NCBI RefSeq assembly: GCF_023734095.1
Contig: NZ_AP024620.1
Span: 1,422,501-1,486,500, forward strand
Origin: Moorella sp. Hama-1
GTDB taxonomy: Bacteria > Bacillota > DSM-521 > Neomoorellales > Neomoorellaceae
Direction of reading: 5' to 3'
Length of the DNA stretch: 64,000 nt
The stretch's first letter is position 1. The number at the start of each line of letters is the position of its first letter. Position numbers and translations under genes: made by a program. This document shows positions 16,122 to 33,677 of this stretch, in pieces. The notes under the pieces are model-generated. The model worked only from the letters and a program-made list of their open reading frames with translations, did no database searches and was not told where the DNA came from.

Positions 16122-16156
16122 GGGCCGGGTGTACCTGCTACCAGGGTACCCGGCCC
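16122..16156 (-). other. Hairpin between the corrinoid and MtrH genes
   Basis: GGGCCGGGT... and ...ACCCGGCCC form a GC-rich stem of nine or more pairs with a bulge. It has no T-run in the minus direction and stands 24 bases before the MtrH start. It may set relative transcript levels of the two genes. Confidence 0.4.
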
Positions 16157-16194
16157 AAACTTGAAAAACCAAAACCATCGACAGTAGCTTATAT

Positions 16195-16917: not shown

Positions 16918-16932
16918 GGCTTATCCCTCCAT

Positions 16933-17530
16933 TTACAGAGTATCGATTTGGGCCATAAACTCGGCAAAGCTTTCCCGGGGCTGGGGTTTAAAAGCAGCAC
17001 CATCGTCACGGAACTGGTAAGGCAACTGTCCATAGTAATGGGCGGCCTGGATAGCAGCGTGGACGTGTTCAGGCGGCGTGTCGGCCGGGATATTGGCCAG
17101 GAAAATAGTTAAGCCGAATTCCGGGGCCAAGGTGTCGATAAGGCGTTTAACATTGAAAACTATCTTCTCTACCGGACCATCCCGGAGGAGGCGGGCATTG
17201 ATACCACCCATCACTACAACCTGTTGCCCCTGGGATTTTAATTCCCGGCCGTACTCTACTACCGTATCCAGGGGATACTCGTGCCAGCGCCCCATCCCCA
17301 GCATTAGTACCGGAGCACCCTGGGAAGCGACGGAGATTTCCAGGCAACGGCGCAGGATGCCGGCATCAAATTTTTCCGGCTGTTCTTCGCAGTAGTCGGC
17401 GGTCGCTACTGCGGCGGCATAAACCCCCATTTCGCCGCCCTTTTGCAAAAGGTGTAAATTCCAGGGCAATACCCACTCCTCAATCAATTTCAACGACAGG
17501 TTGGGAAAGGCGGACCAGGCGTCGGCCCCG
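16933..17530 (-). pseudogene. URO-D/MtaA-family methyltransferase, C-terminal half only
   Basis: The open frame begins near GADAWSAFPNLSLKLIEEW and ends with FLANIPADTPPEHVHAAIQAA. Both match the intact URO-D family protein at 18034 (VDAWGSLPNTDLQIWDEF; FLAHIIAETPPENIRAAVQAA). The N-terminal half (about 180 residues of barrel) is absent. Upstream the DNA is a PocR-like fragment in another frame. A TTG at 17493 could still start a 186-residue product, but it would lack much of the active site. It is most likely a deletion remnant. Confidence 0.72.
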
Positions 17531-17762
17531 GAACCAGCCGGACTTTTATTACCGGCAAATCGATCCTGGTTGCCAGCAGGGTCTTACCAAGGAGCTGGTT
17601 TAACAATTCCCTGGCTCCCCGGGAATCGCCGACTTTTACCCGGGCGATTAGCTGGCGCTCTTTTTCCAGAGGGTAACTTCCTGCTTCCCCGTGACTATGA
17701 AGTTGTTCCTGCCTGGAAGGCCGGAGGGTGGTCTGCTTTGAAGCCGGCAACATCTTGCTCAA
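17530..17762 (-). pseudogene. Fragment of a PocR/AraC-type regulator
   Basis: The frame from 17762 contains SYPLEKERQLIARVKVGDSR and ARELLNQLLG, typical of the linker region of PocR-domain AraC regulators that control corrinoid/C1 genes. It stops being recognisable at IDLPVIKVRLV, where the URO-D fragment begins in another frame. Both the sensor part and the HTH are missing. It looks like the loser of the deletion that joined the two genes. Confidence 0.55.
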
Positions 17763-18033
17763 CTCCCGCCAGGTTTAACTACTCTTTTCAAGGGAGCTAT
17801 GCTAAAATAAATCTCATGAACTAAACTTTAAATCTTATTTTCTTTCTGGCAACGGAAATTCCTTTAGTAAAAATCAGGGTGGATAATGGCAAACCAGGAC
17901 TGGATAGAGAGATACAAGACGGCCATGCCGCCGGCGCGGTACCAACAGAGGGATGAAAACGGCAGGGGGGAGTTATTTTCAGGATGGATTTTAAATAATA
18001 TAGCTGGTTATAGTATTTACAGGAGGCAATTAA

Positions 18034-19062
18034 ATGGAACTTCCCGGGCGGATACCAATATTTGCCCAGCTTCATGAACATGCCTGTTATCGCGCCGGCC
18101 TTGATCCCGCGGTCTTCTATAATGATGCCGGCATACTTGTCCGTAACCAGATAGAAACCAGCAAGCTGTATGAAATGGATTTGCCTATGATCCTTTATGA
18201 TGTCTATAATATTGAAGCGGAGGCCCTGGGGCAGCCGGTGGTGGGTTACCGGGCCAAAGGCCCCCAGCTGGCCGGTACGCCGTTATTAAGCAATAAAGAT
18301 GACCTGGAACAGTTGAAATTAGATTTAGGCCGGGGAAGATGGCCTGGGCGGACCCGTTTCGTAACGGAGGTTAACCGGCTAATCCAGCAGGAACTGGCTA
18401 CTCCTCCCCCGCTTTTCTTTTGCGCGCCGTTTACTCTGGCGGTGACTTTGCGGGGATATACAGGGTTGATTACGGACCTGAAACGGGACCCCGGCTTTGG
18501 CCGCCGGTTACTGGAACACCTCTGCCGGATGGTCGTCGTCCCCTGGATTAAGCTCCAGCACGAACATTGCCCGGAGGCCACCCTGGCTCAGGGGGTCGAT
18601 GCCTGGGGTTCCCTGCCGAATACTGACCTGCAGATCTGGGATGAATTTATAATCCCGATTTATGAATACCTCAGGGAATTGTTAACCGGGGAAATTGCAG
18701 TAGGGTTTGTCGGTTACTGGGGCGAGAGTTTATGCGCCGATGCCTGGGAGTTTATCAAGCGTAAACTCTACGTTTGCGGCCCTTGCTTTGGGGGGGGTAT
18801 TATTGCTACCGATCCGGATCTGAAATACCTGGGACTGGAAACCTTTGCCCGGATAGCCCGGGCCTATGGCAGGAAACTTATCCTGGGTATCGGCGCCGAG
18901 GAGTTATACCAGGGACCGCCGGAGGCTATCGCGGCCAGGATTAATCAATATAAGAGTCTTATGGGGCCTGAACAGCCCCCCATCAACCTTTTCCTCGCCC
19001 ACATTATCGCCGAGACCCCACCGGAAAATATTCGGGCGGCGGTGCAGGCGGCTCATCATTGA
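18034..19062 (+). CDS. Uroporphyrinogen decarboxylase-family protein (MtaA/CmuA-like methyltransferase type)
   Basis: 342 residues with a URO-D barrel (LPGRIPIFAQLHEHACYRAG, CAPFTLAVTLRGYTGLITDL, FVGYWGESLCADAWEF, LILGIGAEELYQGPPEAI). Outside tetrapyrrole synthesis, such proteins move methyl groups between corrinoid proteins and thiol or folate acceptors. It is divergent from the MtrH/corrinoid cluster. GGAGG lies nine bases before ATG 18034. The role is inferred from context; the substrate is unknown. An upstream plus-strand frame of 63 codons (17886-18077) overlaps it and I could not support it as a gene. Confidence 0.82.
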   Translation: MELPGRIPIFAQLHEHACYRAGLDPAVFYNDAGILVRNQIETSKLYEMDLPMILYDVYNIEAEALGQPVVGYRAKGPQLAGTPLLSNKDDLEQLKLDLGRGRWPGRTRFVTEVNRLIQQELATPPPLFFCAPFTLAVTLRGYTGLITDLKRDPGFGRRLLEHLCRMVVVPWIKLQHEHCPEATLAQGVDAWGSLPNTDLQIWDEFIIPIYEYLRELLTGEIAVGFVGYWGESLCADAWEFIKRKLYVCGPCFGGGIIATDPDLKYLGLETFARIARAYGRKLILGIGAEELYQGPPEAIAARINQYKSLMGPEQPPINLFLAHIIAETPPENIRAAVQAAHH

Positions 19063-19211: not shown

Positions 19212-20216
19212 CTAACAGGTTTCCCGGATAATCAGTTCGGCCGGTACTAGTACCCGGCGCCGGGGCGTCGAGGGGTCATTAATATGATCGAGTAACATTT
19301 CAGCCGCTTTAATACCGATCTCGTTACTGGGAGAATGGACGGTAGTCAGGCGCGGTCTGGTAAAAGGGGTAATGGGAATATCGTCAAAACCAATTACGGC
19401 CACATCCCGAGGGATGTGCAACCCCATGTCCAGGGCCGCATTAAGGGCACCGATAGCTAAAAGGTCATTGAAAGTGAATACAGCAGTTACTCGGGCCTGT
19501 CTCCCCAGCAGGGTGGCCATACATCGGTAACCGCTTTCAATCGAAATATAACTACCACTAACAATCTGGTTTAATGACAAACCGGCTTTTTTTAAAACCT
19601 CATCGGTTGCTTCCAGACGGCGCTTAGTAATCAGCATTTGCGGTTCACCGGTTATAACCCCAATTTCTGTATGTCCCTTTTGTAAAAGGTATTGGATAGC
19701 CATTCGGGTTCCCTGGCAATCATCAATATTAATACAGCTAATGCCGGCCTTGACAGGTATCGAATCGAGATCGGGCATATCTTCGACGACAACAATGGGG
19801 ATATCTAAACCGGCTAGAATTTGCTGATACCCTTCTTGTAGAGAGCCAGATCCGGCCAGGATAATGCCATCGACATGCCGCTGGATGATGTTGTTAAATA
19901 TCGCCTGCTGTTTAGGGACTTCTTCCTCAAAGGAAAAGATGCTGGTAGTATAACCCGAACTGGATAAAGCCGCCTCGCATCCTTCGGCCAGCTGGCTAAA
20001 GTAAGGATTGCGCAACGTAGGAAAAACGAGGGCTATGGTATAGGTGCGGCCCGTTAAAAGGCTTTTGGCCAGGGGGTTGGGGGTATAATTCATTTCCGTT
20101 ACGATTTGCAGGATACGCTCCCGGGTTTGGGGTCGCACCAACTCCGGTTTATTTAAAGCCCGTGACACAGTAGCAATAGATACTCCGGCCCTGGCAGCGA
20201 TAGTTTTTATATCCAT
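19212..20216 (-). CDS. LacI-family repressor of the Mch-like/FolB operon
   Basis: 334 residues: an N-terminal HTH (IKTIAARAGVSIATVSRAL) and hinge (YTPNPLAKSLLTGRT), then a sugar-binding-type effector domain (IALVFPTLRNPYFSQLAEG, VIGFDDIPITPFTRPRL). It is divergent from the operon beginning at 20410, and an operator-like palindrome lies between them. It is very similar in its HTH to the regulator at 31701, so the two may share operators. The effector is probably the imported compound or a breakdown product. Confidence 0.9.
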   Translation of the reverse strand: MDIKTIAARAGVSIATVSRALNKPELVRPQTRERILQIVTEMNYTPNPLAKSLLTGRTYTIALVFPTLRNPYFSQLAEGCEAALSSSGYTTSIFSFEEEVPKQQAIFNNIIQRHVDGIILAGSGSLQEGYQQILAGLDIPIVVVEDMPDLDSIPVKAGISCINIDDCQGTRMAIQYLLQKGHTEIGVITGEPQMLITKRRLEATDEVLKKAGLSLNQIVSGSYISIESGYRCMATLLGRQARVTAVFTFNDLLAIGALNAALDMGLHIPRDVAVIGFDDIPITPFTRPRLTTVHSPSNEIGIKAAEMLLDHINDPSTPRRRVLVPAELIIRETC

Positions 20217-20377
20217 TGATGAAACAACCCCTGCTTTATACTCCGCCCTTTTTTAAACCTTCACTTTATAGTAATACCTATCTTTCAGGCCCGTCAACCT
20301 AAAAAATTACTTTAAAAATTTATTTGTTTGCAGGAGGAATTTATAAAGTAATGGCGAATTAACTTCTTATTAACTCA

Positions 20378-20391
20378 TGTAAAGGTTTTCA
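20378..20391 (+). promoter_or_regulatory. LacI-type operator before the Mch-like operon
   Basis: TGTAAAGGTTTTCA is a near palindrome with the LacI/CcpA-type TGNAAN(CG)NTTNCA layout. It lies 19 bases before ATG 20410 and resembles the sites at 31534, 31672 and 32759. Confidence 0.5.
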
Positions 20392-20409
20392 TAAAGAGGG
20401 AAATCAACG

Positions 20410-21390
20410 ATGCCTGACGGTTTAAGAGCCAGCCTTAACAACCTGGCCGCTCAAATCCTGGAAGCGGAAGTTCTGCCCCAAGCTGAATCCCTGGGTATTG
20501 GCGTCATCAGGTTAACCAACGGAGCCGTTGTTATCGATATGGGTATTCGCTACCCTGGTAGCTGGTCGGCTGCCGCTTACTTTGTCAGGGTCGGTTTGGG
20601 AGGCCTGGGGCAGTTAACTTTTAATACGTATCCTTTAAACGGTTTCCTCATTCCGGCGGTCCAGATAACGGTAACTAATCCCTTAATCGCTGAAATGGCT
20701 TCCCATGTGGCCTACTGGAAGTTAAATCACCAGGGGAAAAATCTCGTTATTTCCGGACCAATCAGGAGTATAAAAGGCTCCGATGTTTTTGCCCGGGCTA
20801 CCGCTTATCGCGATGTTGCTGCTACTAAAGCCGTAGCTTGCCTACAAACCACTGAGATCCCCGGGGAGGAATTAGCGGAACTTCTGGCCAGTGAAATCGG
20901 GCTCCCGGTTACCTCCCTTTATATCCTGGTGGCTAAAACCGCCTCCATTGTCGGCGCCGTGCAGGTTTGCGCCCGGAATGTTGAACAAACTCTACCCACC
21001 CTCTATGACCGGGGGTTTGATCTAGCGAAGATTGTCCAGGCCGAGGGCCATACACCAGTAGTTTCTATTGTTGATGATGAAGAGGTGGCTTATGGTCACG
21101 TAAATGATTGCCTTATCTATGGTCAGGAAAGTAATATATATGTTCGTTGCCAGGATGAGGAGTTAATCCAAATATTAAATGATATTCCCTTTGTTAAGAA
21201 TAGAGGTATTTATGGAACTCCATTCCAGGAGCTTTTTCAGCGCTGCAGGAATGATTGGGCCCTGGTGCCCAGGGATTGGGATGCCCCCTGCCAGGTGAAT
21301 TTGATTAACCTGGCAACCGGCAACATTTTTTCCACGGGTTCCCGCCATTTAGGTATCCTTACCAGTGATTTTTTAGGTGTAAAGGAGTAA
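20410..21390 (+). CDS. Mch-like protein (methenyl-tetrahydromethanopterin cyclohydrolase family)
   Basis: 326 residues, about the archaeal Mch length. Recognisable blocks in order: RLTNGAVVIDMG (archaeal LENG..VIDCGV), VGLGGLGQLTF, FLIPAVQITVTNPLIAEMA, LVAKTASIVGAVQVCARNVE, NDCLIYGQ, and YGTPFQELFQ. The Arg-xx-Glu pair implicated in archaeal Mch catalysis (as I recall) is kept as R189 and E192. Mch interconverts methenyl and formyl C1 units on tetrahydromethanopterin, a cofactor not expected in an acetogen, so the real substrate may be another pterin-like or folate compound. It is the first gene of the operon; AGAGGG precedes ATG 20410. Confidence 0.83.
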   Translation: MPDGLRASLNNLAAQILEAEVLPQAESLGIGVIRLTNGAVVIDMGIRYPGSWSAAAYFVRVGLGGLGQLTFNTYPLNGFLIPAVQITVTNPLIAEMASHVAYWKLNHQGKNLVISGPIRSIKGSDVFARATAYRDVAATKAVACLQTTEIPGEELAELLASEIGLPVTSLYILVAKTASIVGAVQVCARNVEQTLPTLYDRGFDLAKIVQAEGHTPVVSIVDDEEVAYGHVNDCLIYGQESNIYVRCQDEELIQILNDIPFVKNRGIYGTPFQELFQRCRNDWALVPRDWDAPCQVNLINLATGNIFSTGSRHLGILTSDFLGVKE

Positions 21391-21395
21391 CCGGC

Positions 21396-22202
21396 ATGAA
21401 ACACCTGATCGATAACCTGATGGCTAATCCGGAGATCTATGGCCTCTGGAAATATATCCCCTACCCGGGTTGCACTATTCTTGACTGCGGTTTTAATACC
21501 CCCGGCGGCTGGGAGGCCGCCCGTTTGTTGGCCCTTGCTGCTATAGACGAAAGAGGTTTGGTTTCCTTTGGAAATTTTGATTTAGGAAGCTGCAGGTTAC
21601 CGGCCATCAATATTTGTTATGATTCCCCTAAAACCCTGCTTGCTACCCTGGCGCAACCAGTGCACATAAAAAACTGGGAGATTTTTGGCCCGGCTCTTGT
21701 ACCAGGTAATAAAAATAGACTACTTTTATGTTCAATAGATAAAATTGACTCTGGTTCTTGTGGTAGGCCTGCACTTCCGGAGTTGCTGATGGGCATAAAT
21801 AATACCCTGGATCTAAATAACCACGACCAGGTTGTTATAGCTATCGCCCCCTACCCCAGCCTTGTCGGCATGATCCTCCAGACTTCCTCGGCCCTACCCA
21901 GGACCCTGCAGATTTTAATTACTAATGGTCTGGATCCCGACCAGGTACTCTGGGGATGGAGTAGTTGTCCTCTTCCCCCGTTGGTGGATGACTTGCAGTT
22001 GGCCATTGCGCGCTTGGAGAAAACCTTGCTTTATGGACTAACTATCAGCCTTTGGGTCAGGGGTGATAATGAGCAACTAGTGACTTTATTAAATAAGACT
22101 CCCGTTAACGGACAGGTGCGTCTCCATAATTTGACCACAGCCAAGACTATCGTTAAAGGATCGATTGCCGGCGATCAATTAAGAAATCTATATAGTTTAT
22201 AG
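21396..22202 (+). CDS. Second, divergent Mch-like protein without the catalytic pair
   Basis: 268 residues starting five bases after the first Mch-like gene, with GGAGTAA before ATG 21396. It keeps the fold marks (GCTILDCGFNTPGGWEAARL, LPAINICYDSP, IAIAPYPSLVGMILQ) and a shortened C-terminus. Where the first copy has ARNVE this one reads SALPR, so both candidate catalytic residues are lost. It may be a non-catalytic subunit of a heteromer or bind the same ligand for another purpose (inference). It is too divergent to be a recent duplication. Confidence 0.68.
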   Translation: MKHLIDNLMANPEIYGLWKYIPYPGCTILDCGFNTPGGWEAARLLALAAIDERGLVSFGNFDLGSCRLPAINICYDSPKTLLATLAQPVHIKNWEIFGPALVPGNKNRLLLCSIDKIDSGSCGRPALPELLMGINNTLDLNNHDQVVIAIAPYPSLVGMILQTSSALPRTLQILITNGLDPDQVLWGWSSCPLPPLVDDLQLAIARLEKTLLYGLTISLWVRGDNEQLVTLLNKTPVNGQVRLHNLTTAKTIVKGSIAGDQLRNLYSL

Positions 22203-22215
22203 GGAGGAAATGTTG

Positions 22216-22872
22216 TTGGTTAAACTTCTGGGCATTTGCGGTAGTCCTCGAAAGGCAGCCACCGAATATATTCTGACGGAAGCCTTGCAGGCGGCAGCTG
22301 AAATTGAAGGTGTAACTACGCAACTGCTTACTCTCAGAGGCAAAAAAATAAACTTCTGCCTGCACTGCGACCGTTGCGTTAAGAATGAGCTGGATTACTG
22401 CCCCACTTTTGACGATGATATGCGCCCCGTTTACCAGACTTTTTACGAAGCCGACGCTTACCTCCTGGCCTCCCCCGTCTATAACATGGGGGCCAGCGGG
22501 CAAATAGTTACTTTTTTAAACCGTTTTCGGCCAACTTATACCATATTAAAAAAGGATCCCAATTATTTTTCCCGGAAGGTAGGTGGTGCCATCGCCATCG
22601 GTGGTACTCGTAATGGCGGCCAGGAAACAGCCCTGAATGTTTTGCTGGGGTTTTATTACACCCATGGCATCCTGGTGGTCAGCGGCGGCCTGGGTATTTA
22701 TCATGGCGCTGCTATCTGGAGCCAGGATCGTAAGGTGGAAGGGGCGAGGGAGGATGTGACCGGGGTAGCGAACGCCCGGACTATTGCCCGGCGGGTTGCC
22801 GAAGCGGCTATAATGCTAAAAAGTGGAAAGGGTCTACTTAATCATGAAACAGAAACTATTGCCAGAAGGTGA
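22216..22872 (+). CDS. Iron-sulfur flavoprotein (Isf-like, NADPH-dependent FMN reductase family)
   Basis: About 218 residues with a flavodoxin-like fold. LLGICGSPRKAATEYIL forms the FMN phosphate loop, and CLHCDRCVKNELDYC is a compact CX2CX2CX7C motif, which in Isf proteins of methanogens holds a [4Fe-4S] cluster. ASPVYNMGASGQIVTFLNRF is the second FMN loop. It would shuttle one or two electrons for a redox step in this operon. I prefer TTG 22216 (GGAGG eight bases upstream); an ATG at 22210 abuts the GGAGG. It is co-operonic with the Mch-like pair and overlaps the FolB-like gene by four bases. Confidence 0.8.
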   Translation: MVKLLGICGSPRKAATEYILTEALQAAAEIEGVTTQLLTLRGKKINFCLHCDRCVKNELDYCPTFDDDMRPVYQTFYEADAYLLASPVYNMGASGQIVTFLNRFRPTYTILKKDPNYFSRKVGGAIAIGGTRNGGQETALNVLLGFYYTHGILVVSGGLGIYHGAAIWSQDRKVEGAREDVTGVANARTIARRVAEAAIMLKSGKGLLNHETETIARR

Positions 22873-23252
22873 AGTGGTTGGAAAAAGAGGATCTTTTGTT
22901 AATAAAAGGAATGCAATTTTGGGCTAAACATGGGTACTTTTCCGAGGAAAACAAGCTAGGCCAACGATTTGTGGTAGATGTGGAAGTAGCCACTGACATG
23001 AGCCATACCTGTATCACTGATGATCTTACAGGTGCTTTGAGTTATATGGATGTCTATGCCCTTACCTCTAAGGTAGTAACGCAAGAAGAACACCGGACCG
23101 TCCAGAGGATTGCCCAACGTATCGCCGATGAGATCATAGCTGCTCACCCGATAAAACAGGTCCGGGTGACGGTGAAAAAACCTTCAGTGGCTATCGGTGG
23201 TATTGTGGAGTATAGCGGTTGCTCCATAGTCCGGGAACCGCAAAACCCATAA
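22869..23252 (+). CDS. FolB-like dihydroneopterin aldolase-family protein
   Basis: 127 residues, the usual FolB/FolX length. Visible: HGYFSEENKLGQRFVVDVEV (HG...E...GQ motif), LSYMDVY with the catalytic-region Tyr, and VRVTVKKPSVAIGG with the active-site Lys. The pterin-anchoring Glu (LIE.xAER in FolB) is replaced by Gln in TVQRIAQRIAD, so it may act on a different pterin. FolB cleaves the side chain of dihydroneopterin. No other folate genes are here. Start GTG 22869 overlaps the upstream stop (GTGA). Confidence 0.82.
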   Translation: MKWLEKEDLLLIKGMQFWAKHGYFSEENKLGQRFVVDVEVATDMSHTCITDDLTGALSYMDVYALTSKVVTQEEHRTVQRIAQRIADEIIAAHPIKQVRVTVKKPSVAIGGIVEYSGCSIVREPQNP

Positions 23253-23275
23253 TAATTTTTAAGGAGGAAGATAAG

Positions 23276-24313
23276 ATGGGTAAACGCGTACGGAAAGGGT
23301 TGGCTTTAGTAGTTGTTGCTCTCCTGACCCTGACCCTGGCCCTGGTGGCCGGTTGTGGAAGCAAACCGGCCACAGATGCTGGCAAACAAGGTAATAGTCC
23401 GGCAACCGGCAATAGCTCTTCCGGTAGTGGTGATTTTAAGGTAGCCCTTGTTTGTCCCGGCGCTGTCAATGACGGTGGTTGGAATGCCTCTGCTCTCGCA
23501 GGTCTGAACGATATCCAGTCTAAACTCGGGGCCAAGGTTGCTTATACGGAAAAAGTGGCTCCTGCCAATTATGCCCAGGTGATTCGTACCTATGCCCGCC
23601 AGGGTTATAATCTGATCTTCGGCCATGGGTATGAATTTAATGAAGCCATGAAAACAGTGGCCCCGGAATTTCCTAATACCAAATTTGTGGTTATTAACGG
23701 TAACGTTACTGGTCCTAATTTGGCTTCTACGAACTTTAAATTTGGCGAACTGGGTTACTTTACCGGTATGGCGGCTGGTATGGTAACTAAGAGTAACAAA
23801 GTGGGTGTGGTTGCTCCTGAAGCCTCGCCAACGGTGACCGCAGATATTGATACCTTTAAAGAAGGCGTAGCCAAAGTGAATCCAAAAGCCACCGTATCCG
23901 TTTCCTATACCGGCAGCTGGGAAGATATCCCCAAGGCCAAGGAAGCAGCCAAGGCTTTGTTATCCCAGGGGGATGATGTCTTACTGGTTATGGGTAACTC
24001 CTTCAGTATCGGCGTTTTCCAGGCCTGTAAGGATGCCAATGCCAAGGCCATCGGTTGGGTATCAGACCAGAACTCTATGGCGCCAGATACTATTATTACC
24101 AGCGGTCTCCAATCAGTCGAAACTCTCTATGTCGATATGGCCCAGATGGTTAAAGACGGCAAATTCGAAGGTAAAAACAATATTTTTGGCATGAAAGAAA
24201 GTGCCCAATCTCTAGCACCTTTTAAGAACGTACCCCAGGATGTTGTTGATAAAGTCCAGGGCGCTGTTAAGGATTACCTGGCTGGCAAACTCAGTATTAA
24301 AACGATGTACTAA
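23276..24313 (+). CDS. BMP-family substrate-binding lipoprotein (second importer)
   Basis: About 345 residues. The signal ends in a lipobox (LVAGC|GS), followed by a Ser/Gly/Asn linker and a Bmp-type binding domain (VALVCPGAVNDGGWNASALA, LIFGHGYEFNEAMK, NVTGPNLAS, GYFTGMAAG, VSYTGSWEDI). It has a strong GGAGG nine bases before ATG 23276. It is the binding protein for the importer 24339-27900, and is clearly paralogous to 7618 but diverged enough for a different solute. Confidence 0.9.
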   Translation: MGKRVRKGLALVVVALLTLTLALVAGCGSKPATDAGKQGNSPATGNSSSGSGDFKVALVCPGAVNDGGWNASALAGLNDIQSKLGAKVAYTEKVAPANYAQVIRTYARQGYNLIFGHGYEFNEAMKTVAPEFPNTKFVVINGNVTGPNLASTNFKFGELGYFTGMAAGMVTKSNKVGVVAPEASPTVTADIDTFKEGVAKVNPKATVSVSYTGSWEDIPKAKEAAKALLSQGDDVLLVMGNSFSIGVFQACKDANAKAIGWVSDQNSMAPDTIITSGLQSVETLYVDMAQMVKDGKFEGKNNIFGMKESAQSLAPFKNVPQDVVDKVQGAVKDYLAGKLSIKTMY

Positions 24314-24338
24314 GGAGTGACTCGTTACGGGCAGCCGT

Positions 24339-25394
24339 TTGGGAGTTAAAATCCAAGACACCCTGAATTACCTCCTAGTTGCATTCCTGGCCATAATTGT
24401 CGCCCTGGGTTTAAGCTCCTTTATTTTAATCTGGCAGGGCAGCAATCCGTGGGAAGCTTATGCAGCCTTGTTTGGGGGCGCCTTTATCGGTCTGGGTAAC
24501 CTGGGTGCGAGTTTGGTCCTGGCCTTGCCTTTGATGCTGGCAGGTCTTGGTATTGCCCTGGCCTTCCGGGCAGGTATCTTTAACATCGGCGCCGAAGGGC
24601 AGCTCTACCTTGGCGCCATGGCAGCAACCATTGTAGGTTCGCGTTACCCGGATTTACCGTTTGTGATCCACCTTCCACTGGCGCTGGCGGCAAGTTGTGC
24701 CGCCGGCGGCCTGTGGGCGCTTATCCCGGGCTTTTTGAAAGTCCGGCGGGGATTTAACGAGGTTATTACCACGATTTTGTTGAACTATATCGGTGTGTAC
24801 TTTGTCGATTACTCTGTGAATAGTTTTTTAAAGGACCCAGCTACCTTTGCCCCCCAATCACCACCGATCACTCCTACCGCGCAGTTACCTAAACTTTTAG
24901 CCGGTACCGAACTCAACGCCGGCCTGTTCCTGGGTTTGCTGGCAGCAGTAATCCTTTTCATCGTTCTCTACAAAACCGATTGGGGCTTCGGGGTGCGAGC
25001 CGTAGGTTCGAACCCCGAAGCCGCTCGGACGGCTGGAATGAACGCCGGTAGAACGCTGATAGTGACCATGGTTGTCAGCGGTGCCCTGGCCGGATTAGCC
25101 GGAGCCGTCCAGATTCTAGGTTACCAGAACATTTTGCTCCAGGACTTTTCGCCTAATACCGGCTATGATGCCATTGCGGTGGCCCTTTTAGGCAATCTTA
25201 ACCCCCTGGGCACAGTAGCGGCAGCCATCTTTTTCGGGGCCCTGCGCAATGGTGCCAATACCATGCAAATCCTGATGGGTATTCCAGTAACTATTGTCTA
25301 CATCATCCAAGCAATCATTATCGTCTGCGTTCTCGCCTTTAGTAAACTGAAAATCAGGCTGATCAACTTTAAGCTGCGGGAGGGGGTCCAATAA
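24339..25394 (+). CDS. ABC importer permease (first, second importer)
   Basis: 351 residues, about eight to ten membrane segments, BPD_transp_2 family (FRAGIFNIGAEGQLYLGAMA, VRAVGSNPEAARTAGM coupling loop). It is paralogous to 4925. TTG 24339 is the only plausible start in frame after the preceding TGA; the ribosome site is weak. It shares a TAATG stop/start overlap with the next permease. Confidence 0.87.
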   Translation: MGVKIQDTLNYLLVAFLAIIVALGLSSFILIWQGSNPWEAYAALFGGAFIGLGNLGASLVLALPLMLAGLGIALAFRAGIFNIGAEGQLYLGAMAATIVGSRYPDLPFVIHLPLALAASCAAGGLWALIPGFLKVRRGFNEVITTILLNYIGVYFVDYSVNSFLKDPATFAPQSPPITPTAQLPKLLAGTELNAGLFLGLLAAVILFIVLYKTDWGFGVRAVGSNPEAARTAGMNAGRTLIVTMVVSGALAGLAGAVQILGYQNILLQDFSPNTGYDAIAVALLGNLNPLGTVAAAIFFGALRNGANTMQILMGIPVTIVYIIQAIIIVCVLAFSKLKIRLINFKLREGVQ

Positions 25395-26383
25395 TGTTTC
25401 TGCTGCATATATTCACCGAGGCCGATTTCTATAACGCGGCCATCCGCCTAACAGTTCCCCTCCTGCTGGCGGCCACGGGCGGGCTTTTTAGCGAGCGCGC
25501 CGGCGTTTTAAACCTGGGACTGGAAGGCATGATGCTCATGGGCTCTTTTTTCGGCTATCTGGGTGCCCTTTATTCCCATAGCGTGATAATCGGCCTCCTG
25601 ATTGCAGCCCTCAGTGGTGGCCTGCTGGCCCTCCTGCATGCTTACATGAGCATTACGGTCAAGGTGGATCAGATTGTAACTGCCGTAGGTATTAATATGT
25701 TAGCCCTGGGGATAACCAGTACTGTGTTTCGCTTGATTTTCGGCACCAACCTTAACCAGTTGGAATCACCGGGTATGGTACCGGTGAACTTCGGGGCTTT
25801 GAGTAAAATACCTTTCCTGGGCCATGTATTCTTTGACCAGGTCCCCCTGGTCTATGTGGCCCTCGTCCTGGTCCTTTTGGCCAACTATATCCTTTACCAC
25901 ACCTTCTGGGGACTGGCCATCAGGGCGGCGGGCGAACACCCCCAGGCCCTGGATGTGGCTGGCATTGACGTCCTTAAAGTTCGTTACGTGGCGGTGGTAA
26001 TCAGCGGTCTCCTGGCCGGATTGGGTGGAGCCGCCGTCACCTTAAGCGGTATCAATACCTTCTACGATAATATTACCGCCGGTCGTGGTTTTATCGCCTT
26101 TGCCGCCATTGTCTTTGGTAAATGGACGGCCTTCGGTACCGCCCTGGCCACCCTTCTATTCGGCGCCGGCGAAGCCCTCCAATTACGCCTGCAGGCATTT
26201 AATTTCCCCATACCCTATCAATTCTTTTTAATGTTGCCCTATGCCCTGACCCTGGTAGCCCTCATCTTTTTCATGGGGCCTTCCAAAGGCCCTGCTGCCA
26301 GCGGGGCTCCCTATAACAAAGATAAAGCCCGCGGTCACCGCCGCCGGCCCACCAAGGCATCGCAATCGGGGGCGAATTTATGA
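25394..26383 (+). CDS. ABC importer permease (second, second importer)
   Basis: 329 residues. SERAGVLNLGLEGMMLMGSF opens the conserved core, and IRAAGEHPQALDVAGI is the ATPase-coupling loop. It is paralogous to 4009 but carries a longer basic tail (KARGHRRRPTKASQSG). It overlaps the ATPase gene by four bases (ATGA). Confidence 0.88.
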   Translation: MFLLHIFTEADFYNAAIRLTVPLLLAATGGLFSERAGVLNLGLEGMMLMGSFFGYLGALYSHSVIIGLLIAALSGGLLALLHAYMSITVKVDQIVTAVGINMLALGITSTVFRLIFGTNLNQLESPGMVPVNFGALSKIPFLGHVFFDQVPLVYVALVLVLLANYILYHTFWGLAIRAAGEHPQALDVAGIDVLKVRYVAVVISGLLAGLGGAAVTLSGINTFYDNITAGRGFIAFAAIVFGKWTAFGTALATLLFGAGEALQLRLQAFNFPIPYQFFLMLPYALTLVALIFFMGPSKGPAASGAPYNKDKARGHRRRPTKASQSGANL

Positions 26384-27900
26384 AACCACTTCTGAGCCTG
26401 CGCGGCATTACTAAGGAATTTCCCGGTGTCCTGGCTAACGATCAGGTTGACCTGGATGTTTACCCGGGGGAAGTCCATGCCCTGCTGGGGGAAAATGGCG
26501 CCGGTAAAAGCACCTTAATGAATATCCTTTACGGCCTCTACGGCGCCGATGCCGGGCAAATATTTTTGGCGGGCCGGGAAGTTACGATTGCCTCCCCCCG
26601 GGAAGCCATCGAACTGGGGATTGGCATGGTCCACCAGCATTTCATGCTGATCCCGGCCCTGACCGTATCCGAAAATATTATCCTGGGTATGGGCGGGAAG
26701 GTTCATCTTAACATGCGGGAGGCGGCGCAAAAAATCAGGGCGGCCGGGGAACAATACGGTTTAAAGGTCAACCCTGAAGCCAGGGTAGCCACCCTATCGG
26801 TCGGCCAGCAGCAAAGGGTCGAGATTTTAAAGGCCCTCTACCGGGGGGCGAAAATCCTGATCCTTGACGAACCGACGGCCGTCCTCACCCCCCAGGAAAC
26901 CGAAGAGCTGTTTGCGATTTTGCGCCAGCTTACTACCAGCGGCGTAACGGTAATCTTTATCAGCCATAAACTCAACGAAGTCATGGCCATTAGCCAGCGG
27001 GTTTCCGTATTGCGCCGCGGCCGGAAGATTAAAACAGTTTTTACCAGCGAGACCTCCCCTGAGGAATTGGCCAGCCTGATGGTCGGCCGGGAAGTAAACC
27101 TGCAGTTAGATAAACACCCTGCCTCCCCCGGTGAGCCGGTACTAGAAATAAAAGACCTTTATGTACCGGGTGAACAGAACTTGCCGGCGGTCCAGGGCAT
27201 ATCGTTGACCGTCCGGGCCGGCGAAATCTTTGGCCTGGCCGGCGTCGATGGTAACGGTCAATCGGAATTAATCCGGGCCATTACGGGGTTACAGCGGGTT
27301 CTTAAAGGCCACATCCGTATCTGCGGGCAGGAAGCAACTAATTTGCCGCCCCGGCAGCTGCTGGACCTGGGCATGGCCCATATTCCGGAAGATCGGCAGA
27401 AACAGGGCCTGATTCTGGATATGAAGATTGAGGAAAACCTGATCCTGGAGTACTTTAGCCAGGCCCCCTTTAGCAGGCATCATTTCCTGCAGGCAGGATC
27501 CATCCAAAATCTGGCGCAAAAACTCATTCAAGACTTCGATATCCGGACGCCTTCCTGCGAAATACCGGCCGGTAATCTCTCCGGCGGTAACCAGCAAAAA
27601 ATAATCCTGGCGCGCTCCCTTTACCGCCAGCCCAGATTATTGATTGCCGTTCACCCCACCCGGGGCCTGGATATCGGCGCTGCCGACTTTATTCACCGTA
27701 CCTTGATTGCCGAACGAGAACGCGGTTGCGCCATTTTACTCGTTTCCACCGAACTGGATGAAATACTCCGGGTGAGCGACCGGATCGGCATTATTTATGA
27801 AGGCCGGTTAATGGGGGTAATGGACGCCACCGGCGCTGATATTACGACTATCGGACTTTTAATGGCGGGAAGGGAGCAAGAAAACGAGGTGGCAATGTAA
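26380..27900 (+). CDS. ABC importer double ATPase (second importer)
   Basis: 506 residues with two ABC domains. Walker A of the first is GENGAGKSTLMNIL and its Walker B region is [13 protein letters not shown]. The second domain has a degenerate loop (GVDGNGQSELIR) and signature [13 protein letters not shown]. It is paralogous to 6025. The next gene starts at the base after its stop. Confidence 0.9.
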   Translation: MKPLLSLRGITKEFPGVLANDQVDLDVYPGEVHALLGENGAGKSTLMNILYGLYGADAGQIFLAGREVTIASPREAIELGIGMVHQHFMLIPALTVSENIILGMGGKVHLNMREAAQKIRAAGEQYGLKVNPEARVATLSVGQQQRVEILKALYRGAKILILDEPTAVLTPQETEELFAILRQLTTSGVTVIFISHKLNEVMAISQRVSVLRRGRKIKTVFTSETSPEELASLMVGREVNLQLDKHPASPGEPVLEIKDLYVPGEQNLPAVQGISLTVRAGEIFGLAGVDGNGQSELIRAITGLQRVLKGHIRICGQEATNLPPRQLLDLGMAHIPEDRQKQGLILDMKIEENLILEYFSQAPFSRHHFLQAGSIQNLAQKLIQDFDIRTPSCEIPAGNLSGGNQQKIILARSLYRQPRLLIAVHPTRGLDIGAADFIHRTLIAERERGCAILLVSTELDEILRVSDRIGIIYEGRLMGVMDATGADITTIGLLMAGREQENEVAM

Positions 27901-29265
27901 TTGCAAAAAGTAGATCTGCTTATTGCCGGCGGCACCCTGGTAACCATGGATGCTGCCGGGACAATAATTCCTGATGGAGCCCTAGCCATTGCCGGCGGCC
28001 AGATTGCGGCCCTGGGGCCGGAGGCTGAGGTAAGGGCCATCTGTGAAGCCAGGGAAGTAATTAACGCACGGGAACAGTATATCTTACCCGGCCTGATAAA
28101 CAGTCATACCCACCTTTTTCAGACTCTGCTTAAAGGGTTGGGGGCCGACACCCCCCTACAGACCTGGATTGCCCAACTCATAAACCCGGTGATACCTTTA
28201 CTCAAGGCCGAGGACTGTTACTATGCCGCCCAACTGGGTATCCTGGAAGCTATCCGCAGCGGCACGACGACCTTGCTGGATTTCATGTACCTGACCTACC
28301 GGCCCGAGTTTTCAGAGGCGGTGATTGCGGCCGCTAAAGACGCCGGCGTCCGTTTCCTTTACGGGCGGGGTATCCACGATACTGGCCTGGGCCGGGATGT
28401 TCCGCCCCTACTGGTTGAAGATGTAGACCATGTGCTTGAGGAAGTTGATTACCTGCGCGGGCGTTATGAAGATAAAAGTGACGGTATGCTCGCCATCTGG
28501 CTGGCCCCCTCGATAATGTGGGGCATGAGTTATGACGGCCTCCGTTCCCTGGCCGCTTATGCCCTGGAGAATAGGGTTCCTGTGACTATGCATCTCATGG
28601 AGACCGACTATGATATTGAGATTTGCCTGGCTGATTACGGCCAGCGCCCCCTGGAGGTCCTGGCCGCAACCGGCATGCTGGCTAATAGATTCCTGTTGGT
28701 ACATGGGGTCCGGGCTAATGATAGGGATTTGCAGATTATGGCGGACTATCGGGTGGCCTGGTCCCATTGCATGGCCGCCAACCTCTACCTGGGGTCCGGT
28801 ATCGCCCCCGTTACCCAGGCTGCGCCGGCTGTTGCCGTTGCCTTGGCTACCGACGGTGCGGCCAGCAACAACAGCCAGAATATGATCGAGCTTTTAAAGC
28901 TTACCGCCCTGGCCCATAAGGGCTTCCGGCGCGATCCGGCGATTATCGACGCCCGGCGGGTTGCCGCCATGGCTACTTGTGAAGGTGCCCGGGCTGTCGG
29001 CCTGGATAAAGAAATAGGGGTTCTGGCGCCTGGCTACCGGGCCGATTTAATTATTATTGACCCTTACTCCCCCACTACCACCCCGGTCCACGACCCCCTG
29101 GCAACTCTGGTCTACTCTTGCGACCAGGAAAACATCGCGACGGTGGTAATCAATGGGCGGGTGGTCATGCAGGACCGGCAGGTGATTACTATAGATGAAG
29201 AAAAGGTGCTCAGGAAGGCTGCCGCTATTGCCCGGCGTTTGCAGGGAGAGTTGTCTTGCCAGTAA
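27901..29265 (+). CDS. Amidohydrolase (TRZ/ATZ, guanine/8-oxoguanine deaminase-like)
   Basis: 454 residues. The metal-dependent hydrolase barrel shows NSHTHLFQTLLKGL (HxH), VTMHLMET and LVHGVRAND (further His), and ALATDGAASNN (Asp). Closest described relatives deaminate purine, triazine or pterin rings, but exact specificity cannot be read. It is last in the operon and starts at TTG 27901 directly after the ATPase stop, with GAGGTG inside the ATPase gene. In context it probably deaminates the imported heterocycle (inference). Confidence 0.87.
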   Translation: MQKVDLLIAGGTLVTMDAAGTIIPDGALAIAGGQIAALGPEAEVRAICEAREVINAREQYILPGLINSHTHLFQTLLKGLGADTPLQTWIAQLINPVIPLLKAEDCYYAAQLGILEAIRSGTTTLLDFMYLTYRPEFSEAVIAAAKDAGVRFLYGRGIHDTGLGRDVPPLLVEDVDHVLEEVDYLRGRYEDKSDGMLAIWLAPSIMWGMSYDGLRSLAAYALENRVPVTMHLMETDYDIEICLADYGQRPLEVLAATGMLANRFLLVHGVRANDRDLQIMADYRVAWSHCMAANLYLGSGIAPVTQAAPAVAVALATDGAASNNSQNMIELLKLTALAHKGFRRDPAIIDARRVAAMATCEGARAVGLDKEIGVLAPGYRADLIIIDPYSPTTTPVHDPLATLVYSCDQENIATVVINGRVVMQDRQVITIDEEKVLRKAAAIARRLQGELSCQ

Positions 29266-29294
29266 ATCCTCAAGCAGTATGATAACTAAAAATA

Positions 29295-29337
29295 AAGGCT
29301 GGTTTCCTGGTTAAATAAAACCGGATCCAGCCTTTTG
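29295..29337 (+). terminator. Terminator after the amidohydrolase
   Basis: AAGGCTGG (29295-29302) pairs with CCAGCCTT (29327-29334), with inner GGTT/AACC pairs, followed by TTGTT. It ends the operon that begins at 20410. Confidence 0.75.
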
Positions 29338-29413
29338 TTATGGGTTGATTTTTAGGTTGTGGCCCCTAGAAAAGGTATAGGGCTGTTTTGCCGTATCAGG
29401 TTGTAGTTTGACC

Positions 29414-30448
29414 TCAATCCGGCCAATAGAGCATGACGCGGTGAATACTCCTATCCTTGGCTTTTTCGATTGCCGCTTCCATCTGGGTGAAGGGCATGGG
29501 CAAGACATTGAACAGGGATAATTCTATCACCCCCTTGGAGATTAACTCGGCAGCAGTAACAAAACTCTGATGATCATGCATGAGACTTCCGGTGAGGGTT
29601 ATCTCCCGGTAATGAAAATCATTTATATTTAGAGTCATAGCGGAATCCGGATGGATAGGAGCGTAAACTACCAGGCGGCCATCTTTGGCTAAGGCCTGCA
29701 GGCCATCTGCTATTGCTTGCTGGCCGCCGGCGGTATAAAAAACGGCGTTAGCGCCGTAACCTTCGGTATGGCGGCGGACAAAATCCACCAGTTTTTCCTG
29801 GCGCGGGTCGAGGGCATAGTCCGCGCCGAGGGCAACGGCCTTTTGCCGGCGGAGGGCACTCGGCTGGCTGACAATTACTTGGGCTCCGTAATACCTGGCT
29901 ACGAGAATAAAAAGGAGCCCCATTAAACCGGCACCAATTACTACGGCCGTATCCCCATTCCTTAAGTTAGCCCGTTTTACGGCCCGGACCACGCAGGCTA
30001 GGGGTTCGGCTAGAATTCCGGCCTGTGAATTCTGTGTGTTGGCCAGGGGGTGAACCATATAGCGCGGCACGGCAATATATTCCGCAAAGCCAGCCGGCCC
30101 CCAGGGACGGCCCCCTGCCGGCTTTTCGGCTGCTTTTAAGCAGTGATTATCCAGTCCGCGCCGGCAATAGTAACAATCCCCGCAGCGGGTGAGGCTGGCT
30201 ACGGCTACTGGTTGGCCTATTTCCACAGGAGGTGACACCTCAGGCCCCACAGCAATGACGGTGCCGGCGATTTCGTGCCCACCCCAAAAGGGAAACTTTG
30301 CCGGTTCAACCCCAGCAAAAATAGTTTGCTCCCAAGTGCAGAGGCCGCAGGCGTCAATTTTGATTAAAACTTCGTCGGCTGCCATTTCCGGTTCGGGTAC
30401 TTTGCGCAGGGCTAATTTCCCTGGGGCGTCAAAAATTATAGCCTTCAC
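29414..30448 (-). CDS. Zinc-dependent dehydrogenase (CTWE type)
   Basis: 344 residues, MDR family: CGLCTWEQ and GGHEIAG near the N-terminus, CGDCYYCRRGLDNHC for the structural zinc, and AVVIGAGLMGLLFI for the nucleotide. It is a close paralogue of 2160 and 33678. Its start overlaps the upstream dehydrogenase stop by four bases, so the two are transcribed together on the minus strand, divergent from the LacI gene at 31701. Confidence 0.88.
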   Translation of the reverse strand: MKAIIFDAPGKLALRKVPEPEMAADEVLIKIDACGLCTWEQTIFAGVEPAKFPFWGGHEIAGTVIAVGPEVSPPVEIGQPVAVASLTRCGDCYYCRRGLDNHCLKAAEKPAGGRPWGPAGFAEYIAVPRYMVHPLANTQNSQAGILAEPLACVVRAVKRANLRNGDTAVVIGAGLMGLLFILVARYYGAQVIVSQPSALRRQKAVALGADYALDPRQEKLVDFVRRHTEGYGANAVFYTAGGQQAIADGLQALAKDGRLVVYAPIHPDSAMTLNINDFHYREITLTGSLMHDHQSFVTAAELISKGVIELSLFNVLPMPFTQMEAAIEKAKDRSIHRVMLYWPD

Positions 30449-31500
30449 AGACTATGTTCCCCCTCTCCAGGGGCCAGCAAAATTTTTAAGCCCTTGCGCT
30501 CGGCCATCATTTGGAAACCTTCCTGCCATTCTGCCAGGGGCAAGCTGGTGGTAATCAGTTGCCGGTAGCCGATCCTGCCGGCAGCCATTAAAGACAGGGC
30601 TTTTTCCCAATCCGGCCAGTTATGGCAAAATACTCCCTTTACAATTAACTCTTTATAGGAAATTTGCTCGTAATCCAGTTCTACAGGATGGCCAAAAAGC
30701 CCCACCTGGATATAGGTCCCCTGGCGGCGAATAATTTCGAGACCCAGGGCTGCTCCACTGCGGGAACCAGAACATTCAAGTACAATGTCCGGACCGTAAC
30801 CGGCGGTCAAATCAAGCAAAGTATCCTTCACGCCCTCTTCAGCTTTCTCGCCAAGGGCAAAGGTGTAGTCTGCGCCCAAAGATTTGGCTACCTGTAGGCG
30901 CTCGGCATCCGCCTCTGTACCTATCACGAACACGCGGCCCCCTTCGGCTTTGGCCACTTGGGCCGCCAGCTGGCCAATGGTCCCCGGGCCGATTACCAGG
31001 ACGTTATCGCCCCAGCTAATCCTTGCCTTGCTCACGGCGTGAACGGCTGAAGCCAGGGGCTCGCTTAAAGCGGCCGCCTCTAAAGGCAGGTTTTCCGGGA
31101 GGCGGTGCAGCATATCGCTGGCGGCAATTACATATTCAGCAAAACCACCGTTGATATCAAAGCCCAGGGATTGCCTGGATGCGCACTCCTGGTATTCGCC
31201 CCGGCGGCAGTAAAGGCACTGGCCGCAGGTGGAAAAAGTATGTTCAGTAGTTACGCGCTCCCCCACGCGCCAGTCTTTAACCCCGGGCCCAGTGCCGGCG
31301 ATCGTCCCGCTTATTTCATGTCCGGGAACTAAGGGATATTTTTTAAATTCAATGGCGCCCGAATAGATATGCATATCGGAGCCGCAGATACCGGCATAAG
31401 CTACTTTCAACAATACTTGCCCGGGGCCAGGCACTGGCTCGGGTATTTGTCGTATTTCCATGTTGCCTGCACCAGGTGCGTATTTTACCAGGGCCTGCAT
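30445..31500 (-). CDS. Zinc-dependent sorbitol/threonine-type dehydrogenase
   Basis: 351 residues with the classical MDR layout: AGICGSDMHIYSG, VPGHEISG, CGQCLYCRRGEYQEC, and VLVIGPGTIGQLAAQVA. It keeps the GSD form of the catalytic motif, unlike its three CTWE-type neighbours, so the pair probably performs two different oxidation steps. It is first gene of a two-gene unit; a LacI-type operator lies upstream at 31534. Confidence 0.88.
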   Translation of the reverse strand: MQALVKYAPGAGNMEIRQIPEPVPGPGQVLLKVAYAGICGSDMHIYSGAIEFKKYPLVPGHEISGTIAGTGPGVKDWRVGERVTTEHTFSTCGQCLYCRRGEYQECASRQSLGFDINGGFAEYVIAASDMLHRLPENLPLEAAALSEPLASAVHAVSKARISWGDNVLVIGPGTIGQLAAQVAKAEGGRVFVIGTEADAERLQVAKSLGADYTFALGEKAEEGVKDTLLDLTAGYGPDIVLECSGSRSGAALGLEIIRRQGTYIQVGLFGHPVELDYEQISYKELIVKGVFCHNWPDWEKALSLMAAGRIGYRQLITTSLPLAEWQEGFQMMAERKGLKILLAPGEGEHSL

Positions 31501-31533
31501 TTTAATTTTGCCTGCCTTTCAACGGATAATTAA

Positions 31534-31547
31534 TGTAAAGCCTTACA
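31534..31547. promoter_or_regulatory. LacI-type operator between divergent dehydrogenase and lacI genes
   Basis: TGTAAAGCCTTACA has perfect five-base arms (seven with flanking AA/TT). It sits 34 bases upstream of the dehydrogenase start at 31500, where a repressor would block that promoter. Confidence 0.6.
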
Positions 31548-31671
31548 TTTAGATATATATATTCGCCGCTACTTTGCAAATTCCTGCCGGGAGATCAATA
31601 ATAAATTAAACGGTAATAGCTTGCAATAGCTACAGTAAATAGTTTATGATTTATATATCAAAGTTCTTCAG

Positions 31672-31685
31672 CGTAACCGCTTGCA
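31672..31685. promoter_or_regulatory. LacI-type operator before lacI
   Basis: CGTAACCGCTTGCA, read on the minus strand as TGCAAGCGGTTACG, matches the motif at 32759 in inverted orientation. It immediately precedes the TAGGAG ribosome site of the LacI gene and suggests autoregulation. Confidence 0.5.
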
Positions 31686-31700
31686 TTAGGAGTGATTGTT

Positions 31701-32699
31701 TTGGCTTTGGACATGAAGGCAATCGCCGAACAAGCCGGAGTTTCGGTAGCTACTGTCTCCCGGGCCCTCAGCCGGCCGGAAATGGTGCGACCGGCTACTA
31801 GGGAAAAAATTTTGGCCTTAGTAGAGGATTTGGGTTATAAACCCAATCCCTTGGCTCGGGGTTTGGTTACAGGCAGGACAGGGCAAATTGCCTTGGTGGT
31901 GCCGACCTTAAATAATCCTTTCTTTGCCCAGTTAGTCGAAGGATGTCAAAAATTTTTGATCCCCAGGGGTTATAATCTGGTTATCTTCAGTTCCCAGGAA
32001 TATAGGGAAAAAGAATTAACCATCCTCCGCAATCTGGATCAGAGGCGCCTCGACGGCCTCATCCTTTCGGGCTCGGGTTTTTTCCCCGACGATTATCACC
32101 CTATATTGGAACAAATTAGAATGCCGGCGGTTTTAATCGAACATTTAGCCGATGTCCCCCATTTGAGTTCCGTTTATATTGATGATTACGTCGGTACTAC
32201 CATGGCCGTTCAGCACCTGGTTAATGGCGGCCACCGGCAGCTGGGGGTTATTGCCGGCAGCCCTCATATGCTGACCACCAGCCGGCGCCTGAAAGCTGTT
32301 AAAAATGTTTTAAAAGAGGCCAATCTCCCCTTTACCGGGAGGCAACTTGTTTATGGTGATTATTCCTCCCTGGAATCAGGGGCTGACAGCCTGAAGGCGT
32401 TATTTAAGACCCACCACCCACCGACGGCGGTATTTGCTTTAAATGATATCCTTGCCATTGGCGCCCTTAAGGCTGCCCGGGAGCTAGGTTTAAAAATTCC
32501 TGAGGATTTGGCGCTCATTGGCTTCGACGACATTCCCATGGCAGCTTATTGCAACCCTCCTTTGAGCACCATCCGTTCCCCCAGTTTAGAACTAGGCCAG
32601 CAGGCAGCCCGGCTCCTCCTTGAGCAATTAAGCCGGGAGAAGGCGCCGGTTAAAAAGGTTTTGTTGCCGGTTGAACTGGTATTAAGGGGTTCCTGTTAA
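31701..32699 (+). CDS. LacI-family repressor of the aldolase/kinase operon
   Basis: About 332 residues: HTH (MKAIAEQAGVSVATVSRAL), hinge (YKPNPLARGLVTGRT) and periplasmic-binding-like effector domain (IALVVPTLNNPFFAQLVEG, LIGFDDIPMAAYCNPPL). I chose TTG 31701, eight bases after TAGGAG; the GTG at 31692 overlaps that ribosome site. It is closely related to the regulator at 19212. Flanking operator-like sites at 31534, 31672 and 32759 suggest it controls itself and both flanking units. Confidence 0.9.
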   Translation: MALDMKAIAEQAGVSVATVSRALSRPEMVRPATREKILALVEDLGYKPNPLARGLVTGRTGQIALVVPTLNNPFFAQLVEGCQKFLIPRGYNLVIFSSQEYREKELTILRNLDQRRLDGLILSGSGFFPDDYHPILEQIRMPAVLIEHLADVPHLSSVYIDDYVGTTMAVQHLVNGGHRQLGVIAGSPHMLTTSRRLKAVKNVLKEANLPFTGRQLVYGDYSSLESGADSLKALFKTHHPPTAVFALNDILAIGALKAARELGLKIPEDLALIGFDDIPMAAYCNPPLSTIRSPSLELGQQAARLLLEQLSREKAPVKKVLLPVELVLRGSC

Positions 32700-32758
32700 G
32701 TGACCTAAATTTTTTTATCGTTAGAGCAGGATTTTGGGGAGCGATGGAGAAATATAAA

Positions 32759-32772
32759 TGCAAACGCTTACA
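32759..32772 (+). promoter_or_regulatory. LacI-type operator before the second aldolase
   Basis: TGCAAACGCTTACA, the best match in the window to the LacI/CcpA-family consensus, 20 bases before the aldolase start. A CcpA (catabolite) site is an alternative reading. Confidence 0.6.
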
Positions 32773-32792
32773 TTAATGTGGAGGGATGCTCG

Positions 32793-33575: not shown

Positions 33576-33677
33576 AAATATTAGTATTTATCGCTAGTGT
33601 ATATACCGTCATTTTCTCCTTTGCTAGACGGTGAAAGTCGTTTCGAGTCAGACTAAATTCTTGAAGGGGTAATTTAA

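Follow-up and report, generated by a model that had tools for sequence, protein, structure and literature searches.

Mch, the methenyl-tetrahydromethanopterin cyclohydrolase, is in use as a marker of methanogenesis and of tetrahydromethanopterin (H4MPT)-linked methylotrophy. In the genome of Moorella sp. Hama-1, two adjacent Mch-family genes lie in an operon together with genes for an importer, an amidohydrolase, a flavoprotein and a FolB-like protein, which raises the question of what cyclohydrolase-type proteins do in such a setting. The window analysed here is a 64-kb stretch (bases 1422501–1486500) of the one-contig 3.32-Mb genome (referred to as G000); coordinates of features are those of the window unless stated otherwise.

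Organization of the operon and extent of the regulon

Nine co-directional genes, never more than a few tens of bases apart, were identified at 20410–29265 (ORFs and Pfam). All are on the plus strand and encode MchA, a non-canonical Mch-family protein (20410–21390; PF02289 MCH, 247.7 bits); MchB, a shortened partner of predicted Mch fold (21396–22202; PF02289 MCH, 71.5 bits); an Isf-like FMN flavoprotein (22210–22872; FMN_red); a FolB paralogue whose ring-binding residue is Gln79 (22869–23252; FolB PF02152, 104.6 bits); a BMP/PnrA-type substrate-binding lipoprotein (23276–24313; Bmp, 200.5 bits); ABC permease A (24339–25394; BPD_transp_2); ABC permease B (25394–26383); a double-cassette ABC ATPase (26380–27900; two ABC_tran stretches); and a cog0402-type amidohydrolase, probably a ring deaminase (27901–29265; Amidohydro_1, 214.7 bits). 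Permease B was called from an ORF in register between permease A and the ATPase and also from its 57–86% identity to permeases in sister operons. The gene for a LacI-family repressor (19212–20216, minus strand; Pfam LacI and Peripla_BP_3) is divergent from the operon, and its orthologue in G004, a genome of the same genus, is 78% identical and lies beside the same operon. A LacI-type operator (ATGTAAAGGTTTTCAT) is located at 20377–20392 (plus strand), and a terminator-like hairpin (−24.6 kcal/mol, z −4.28) follows the operon at approximately 29291–29338 (plus strand); a simple terminator scan missed this hairpin because its apical part is long. The original prediction, in which nine packed genes containing a Mch pair, an Fe–S-type flavoprotein, a FolB-like protein, an importer and an amidohydrolase were placed between a LacI-type site and a terminator, was confirmed in these respects. 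Its limits (20378–29337) enclose a real operon but are too narrow, because a downstream block (29414–36829) is tied to it by the operator, by its arrangement in the sister genome G091 and by four gut genomes.

This block begins with two minus-strand genes for Zn-dependent alcohol dehydrogenases (Zn-ADH 1, 29414–30448; Zn-ADH 2, 30445–31500), for which the neighbouring NCBIfam models are those of scyllo-inosose and threonine dehydrogenases, with scores below the cut-off. They are followed on the plus strand by genes for a second LacI-family regulator (31692–32699; approximately 49% identical to orthologues of the first), a DhnA-type class I aldolase (32778–33575; NCBIfam; nearest solved structures MJ0400 and LsrF), Zn-ADH 3 (33678–34721; NCBIfam comparison), a pentulose-kinase-like FGGY kinase (34737–36224; XylB, 331.7 bits, below the cut-off of 380) and a second Cys-motif FMN flavoprotein (36227–36829; FMN_red; CQGCRYCEERNRC). 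The operator motif has exactly three matches in the 64-kb window, each of them in a promoter gap, and a count of three was reached in 0 of 100 shuffles. The second (ATGTAAAGCCTTACAT, 31533–31548, plus strand) and the third (ATGCAAACGCTTACAT, 32758–32773, plus strand) precede the two Zn-ADH genes and the DhnA aldolase–Zn-ADH–FGGY kinase–flavoprotein run, respectively, and the same motif was found upstream of several sister operons. Three putative operators of one type thus join the importer/Mch half and the sugar/polyol half. A LacI-controlled catabolic regulon at 19212–36829 is tentatively proposed as part of the best explanation described below, and the probability given there applies to the whole. 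A chance neighbourhood was rejected on the basis of conservation and the shared operators.

The genes from the LacI repressor to the BMP lipoprotein (19212–24313) have a GC content of 46–50%, compared with 56% for the window, which suggests that they arrived recently. Directly upstream of the LacI gene (15187–19062), corrinoid-methyltransferase-type genes (DHPS/MtrH-like, corrinoid protein and URO-D family) were recognized by reading, with URO-D assigned by Pfam at 18034–19062. A second BMP importer occurs at 2160–9823, together with a DhnA aldolase, a Zn-ADH and a GntR regulator; this block contains neither a Mch gene nor a LacI operator.

MchA and MchB are distinct from the Mch of the C1 pathway

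MchA scored 223.2 bits against the NCBIfam Mch equivalog model TIGR03120, narrowly below the cut-off (228.8 bits), and MchB scored 56.3 bits, also below it. In MchA, R189 and E192 of the AxRxVE motif, which we take from work on A. fulgidus to be the catalytic pair of Mch, are invariant in an alignment of 30 Mch-like proteins. The MchA model (pLDDT 92.7) resembles solved Mch (PDB 1qlm, 4gvq and 4fio) over its full length, with TM scores of 0.90–0.94. MchA differs from these proteins in its sequence (29–33% identity), in forming a separate clade in the tree of Mch-family proteins, in its constant partner gene and catabolic neighbours, and in that its host genome has a true Mch elsewhere. MchB lacks both the Arg and the Glu of the AxRxVE motif; its model (pLDDT 84.6; TM approximately 0.75 to Mch) predicts that the Mch fold is kept despite this loss. 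A strict division of two active-site motifs between the partners (RxVE in MchA and WGxCPxPP in MchB) was considered and rejected, since archaeal Mch also lack the second motif. The two genes lie side by side on the same strand in all 16 loci (16/16), often with an overlap of a few bases, and from this pairing we infer that MchA and MchB form a complex.

Its family membership and invariant Arg/Glu pair would allow MchA to be the organism's own tetrahydromethanopterin cyclohydrolase, acting in a C1 pathway. This is highly improbable and was rejected, because the same genome encodes a 415.7-bit Mch (at genome position 2040564) inside an Fhc/MtdB-type tetrahydromethanopterin cluster, so that the MchA–MchB pair is not genuine Mch. 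The clade position of MchA also argues against it, as does the lack of Ftr in the MchA-carrying genomes G004, G126 and G403–G409. Ftr was confirmed in the G000 cluster, whereas the Ftr search found none in these genomes or in G017, though all have Mch-like genes. H4MPT-pathway genes were absent around MchA in the window (context check). The original account of Mch and acetogens had missed the true Mch of this genome. Compared with the bacterial H4MPT/methanofuran C1 pathway (PMC5020050), the Mch and Ftr families are shared, but here they sit in heterocycle/polyol clusters, several of them in pathway-free genomes. By reading, the region around the true Mch (2031000–2050999 of the genome) contains a full-looking tetrahydromethanopterin/methanofuran C1 cluster, with genes for Mch, Fhc A/B/C/D, an MtdB-like protein and cofactor biosynthesis; the same cluster is present in one sister genome and absent from most of the genus.

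A Glu-to-Gln switch in the FolB paralogue

The window FolB scored 98.4 bits against TIGR00525, above the cut-off (72.15 bits), and shares with dihydroneopterin aldolase FolB the domain, the GxxxxExxxxQ motif and, by alignment, the active-site Tyr and Lys. It differs in the ring-binding residue: all FolBs of the system have Gln (Gln79 in the window copy), whereas housekeeping FolBs have Glu. In E. coli FolB, the residue aligned with Gln79 is Glu73, which forms two persistent hydrogen bonds, one with the ring NH and one with the 2-NH2, and is the most important residue for binding (PMC4176595). Of the 30 nearest FolB hits of the window protein, Gln is found in 9/9 genomes with a non-canonical Mch and in 0/21 others (Fisher p = 7e-8, relatedness ignored). 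As an internal control, a second, housekeeping FolB has been retained in G000, G004, G063 and G126 and keeps Glu. The Gln-type FolBs form nearly one clade in the tree, and the switch appears to be close to a single event. The original prediction had recognized the families of the Mch-like pair and the FolB-like protein but had missed both the MchA/MchB division of labour and this switch.

In its simplest reading, the Gln points to a substrate carrying a 2-oxo instead of a 2-amino group, which would correspond to the product expected from a deaminase-type (HxxE) amidohydrolase. Alternatively, the Gln could reflect a 2-oxo ring of the purine type, or a reaction that has changed.

Importer, amidohydrolase and flavoproteins

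The Bmp-domain lipoprotein is encoded with two permeases and a double ATPase, as in BMP/PnrA importers. Its solved relatives are Lbp (7x0r, the closest), Brucella BMP, purine-base binders and the atrazine-binding protein; with Lbp as the closest, a plain-sugar ligand may remain compatible. Vitamin B6 import was rejected: the NCBIfam B6 transporter models were nearest, yet all scores were far below the cut-off. The nearest solved relatives of the amidohydrolase are AtzA, deaminases and 8-oxoguanine deaminase, and its metal and acid-base residues (HxH, HxxE, H and D) are conserved in 10 aligned sequences. BMP/PnrA importers and the atrazine-binding protein with AtzA-type hydrolases are similar in importer family and cog0402 amidohydrolase, but those systems lack Mch and FolB and are regulated differently. 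The flavoprotein at 22210–22872 contains a C-x2-C-x2-C-x7-C motif (CLHCDRCVKNELDYC), as in Isf-type Fe–S flavoproteins, which is kept in orthologues. Having both the FMN_red domain and the compact four-Cys motif of Isf, it is likely to be of this type, with a predicted 4Fe–4S cluster.

Conservation and related clusters in other genomes

The neighbours of the Mch-like pair are kept in approximately 10 other genomes of several families, so that the original prediction passed its own check of neighbour conservation. MchA–MchB occur with the flavoprotein, FolB, importer and amidohydrolase in G004 and, with variations, in G063 and G126, around which sampling at order/class rank comprised 3–4 genomes each. 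In Marasmitruncus massiliensis, an Oscillibacter MAG and a Lachnospiraceae MAG, the system is accompanied by Mo-hydroxylase subunits and extra amidohydrolases. Four gut genomes (G406–G409, three of them Pseudoflavonifractor) contain DhnA, FGGY, flavoprotein, three Zn-ADH, MchA and MchB genes in one run, with counterparts of Zn-ADH 1 and Zn-ADH 2 adjoining MchA, and a BMP importer follows MchA–MchB in the three whose contigs continue. These sugar-gene operons contain no FolB and no amidohydrolase gene, and MchAB does not need FolB because G406, G407 and G409 have no FolB anywhere in the genome. In G091, the same sugar block lies beside a FolB–FolB/BMP/flavoprotein operon, and MchA–MchB are found in a related cluster. 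Because the sugar/polyol half belongs to the regulon, a sugar or polyol is probably part of the ligand.

The gut version, the most compact one, consists only of DhnA, FGGY, flavoprotein, three Zn-ADHs, MchAB and the importer, and would suit a plain sugar, polyol or cyclitol regulon in which a cyclic sugar derivative is hydrolysed by MchAB and individual lineages have added FolB and the amidohydrolase. The resemblance of the Zn-ADHs to scyllo-inosose dehydrogenase and that of the binding protein to Lbp are consistent with such a regulon. We consider it rather improbable, as it would leave unexplained the deaminase and the FolB switch, the Mo-hydroxylase, UbiD and RibD_C genes of other versions, and the presence of two H4MPT-enzyme families (Mch and Ftr) in the clusters.

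Mch-family genes were found in 25 of the 398 sampled genomes of the phylum. Some encode true Mch, and others fall into further non-canonical clades with different neighbours, either an SDR and E1/E2 of the 2-oxoacid-dehydrogenase type or DAO/2Fe-2S oxidases, Amidohydro_2, ECF transporters and a Pterin_bind methyltransferase. Further genes in related clusters encode Mo-hydroxylase, UbiD, RibD_C-like reductase, AOR and Fe-ADH, and homologues of the pterin C1 enzymes Mch, Ftr and Pterin_bind recur in such clusters. Two-lobed Ftr/FhcD homologues (L185–L189, in G063, G091 and G146) lie beside genes for Zn-ADHs, FGGY, DhnA, amidohydrolase and ECF transporters, and FhcA/B/D-like genes of G091 adjoin those for a BMP protein, an amidohydrolase and DAO. 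Judged by family assignment, two H4MPT-pathway families (Mch and Ftr) have been drawn into putative catabolic clusters of this type, and the Ftr homologues in parallel clusters strengthen the surprise of finding a C1-enzyme family in a catabolic cluster.

These recurring homologues (Mch, Ftr, FhcA/B/D and Pterin_bind) all have tetrahydropterin C1 units as substrates, and MchAB and its partners might remove such units from C1 cofactors taken up by the cell (folates or tetrahydromethanopterin), in salvage or degradation. Methanopterin carries a deoxyribitol, and one cluster contains an M20 amidohydrolase-family gene distantly similar to pteroyl-glutamate hydrolases. The MchA–MchB clusters, however, contain no peptidase, and the presence of several Mch paralogues in one genome points to a role beyond C1 removal, which makes this a distinctly improbable explanation.

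A purine-type nucleoside or base is a more serious candidate, albeit an unlikely one. MchAB would hydrolyse the imidazole carbon (N–CH=N, opening at C8) as Mch does the methenyl bridge, and the carbon would leave as formyl; the leftover ribosylamino-uracil would, equally conjecturally, pass to the RibD_C-like and sugar enzymes. Nucleosides are the classical cargo of BMP importers, the relatives of the deaminase and of the Mo-hydroxylase are enzymes of purines, and the related clusters supply RibD_C-like genes and, in parallel clusters, formyl-moving or -hydrolysing Ftr/Fhc homologues. Urate oxidase, a FolB relative by fold, holds a 2-oxo ligand with Gln228 among other residues (PMC7792999). 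On the other hand, phosphorylases readily split ordinary purine nucleosides, so that a polyol module would not be needed; moreover, FolB is an enzyme of pterins, and no nucleosidase was noticed in the clusters.

Proposed pathway and its implications

Our best reading, with a probability of roughly 0.4, is an inducible pathway that imports and breaks down a pteridine (pterin/lumazine) ring bearing a polyol. This reading builds on the observed families, conservation, gene and operator sharing, strict MchA–MchB pairing and residue switches, from which we infer the substrate, the order of steps, the MchAB chemistry and the A–B complex. The BMP importer would take up a fused-pyrimidine compound with a sugar or polyol, most likely a pterin or lumazine, and the amidohydrolase would exchange the 2-amino group of the ring for oxygen. 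The resulting 2-oxo ring would then be processed by the FolB paralogue, with Gln for Glu, most likely by cleavage of the side chain in the manner of ordinary FolB, and the MchA–MchB complex would open the bicyclic ring by cyclohydrolase-type C–N hydrolysis through the family Arg/Glu pair. The flavoproteins would adjust the redox state, and the Zn-ADHs, FGGY kinase and DhnA aldolase would convert the sugar/polyol part to central metabolites. The original idea of inducible uptake and breakdown of a pterin- or purine-like compound finds partial support, in that the deaminase, FolB paralogue, Mo-hydroxylase, RibD_C-like and UbiD proteins fit a fused-pyrimidine heterocycle; the C1 bridge that it assigned to the Mch-like protein would be a candidate target of MchAB, and it had overlooked the sugar/polyol half. 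Several points weigh against the pteridine reading: nucleosides and perhaps sugars are also ligands of BMP proteins, the sugar-gene gut operons do without FolB and the amidohydrolase, the Gln-type FolBs form nearly one clade, and Gln may reflect a purine-type ring or another reaction.

Pterin deamination in folate degradation by Variovorax (PMC9513972) is similar in that deamination to the lumazine level is a catabolic step, but it concerns a soil bacterium, and no Mch, FolB, BMP importer or regulon was described. Literature searches on the gene set and on how pterins are degraded anaerobically, with incomplete coverage of subscription papers, found nothing matching. This agrees with the earlier remark that no described pathway with this set was known, although at this coverage the novelty of the route is likely rather than proven.

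On a broader scale, we would put at somewhat below even odds the existence, in anaerobic Firmicutes including common gut genera, of an undescribed network that dismantles pteridine- or purine-type cofactors or nucleosides. It would be built from recruited tetrahydromethanopterin C1 enzymes (several Mch paralogues, the MchA–MchB heteromer and Ftr/Fhc relatives) serving as ring-opening and formyl-moving catabolic enzymes. A large non-canonical Mch branch, often with several copies per pathway-free genome, would mislead inferences from Mch as a marker. If the catabolic reading is true, it would show how pterin- or purine-type cofactors are dismantled by anaerobes, gut bacteria among them, and would reveal that cyclohydrolase chemistry has been put to a new use. 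Direct bench tests are made possible by the FolB switch and the strict MchA–MchB pair.

Other related loci

Double-domain FolB proteins (L097–L104, in G146, G030 and G091) are highly diverged and have Gln as the ring-binding residue in one or both domains; most are located away from other system genes. A decayed related cluster (L058; G075:C1:1191300-1211299) contains fragments of Mch, amidohydrolase, permease and RibD_C-like genes. In three genomes (L040, L043 and L045), a threonine synthase gene is located a few kilobases upstream of the SDR–Mch–E1/E2 clusters.
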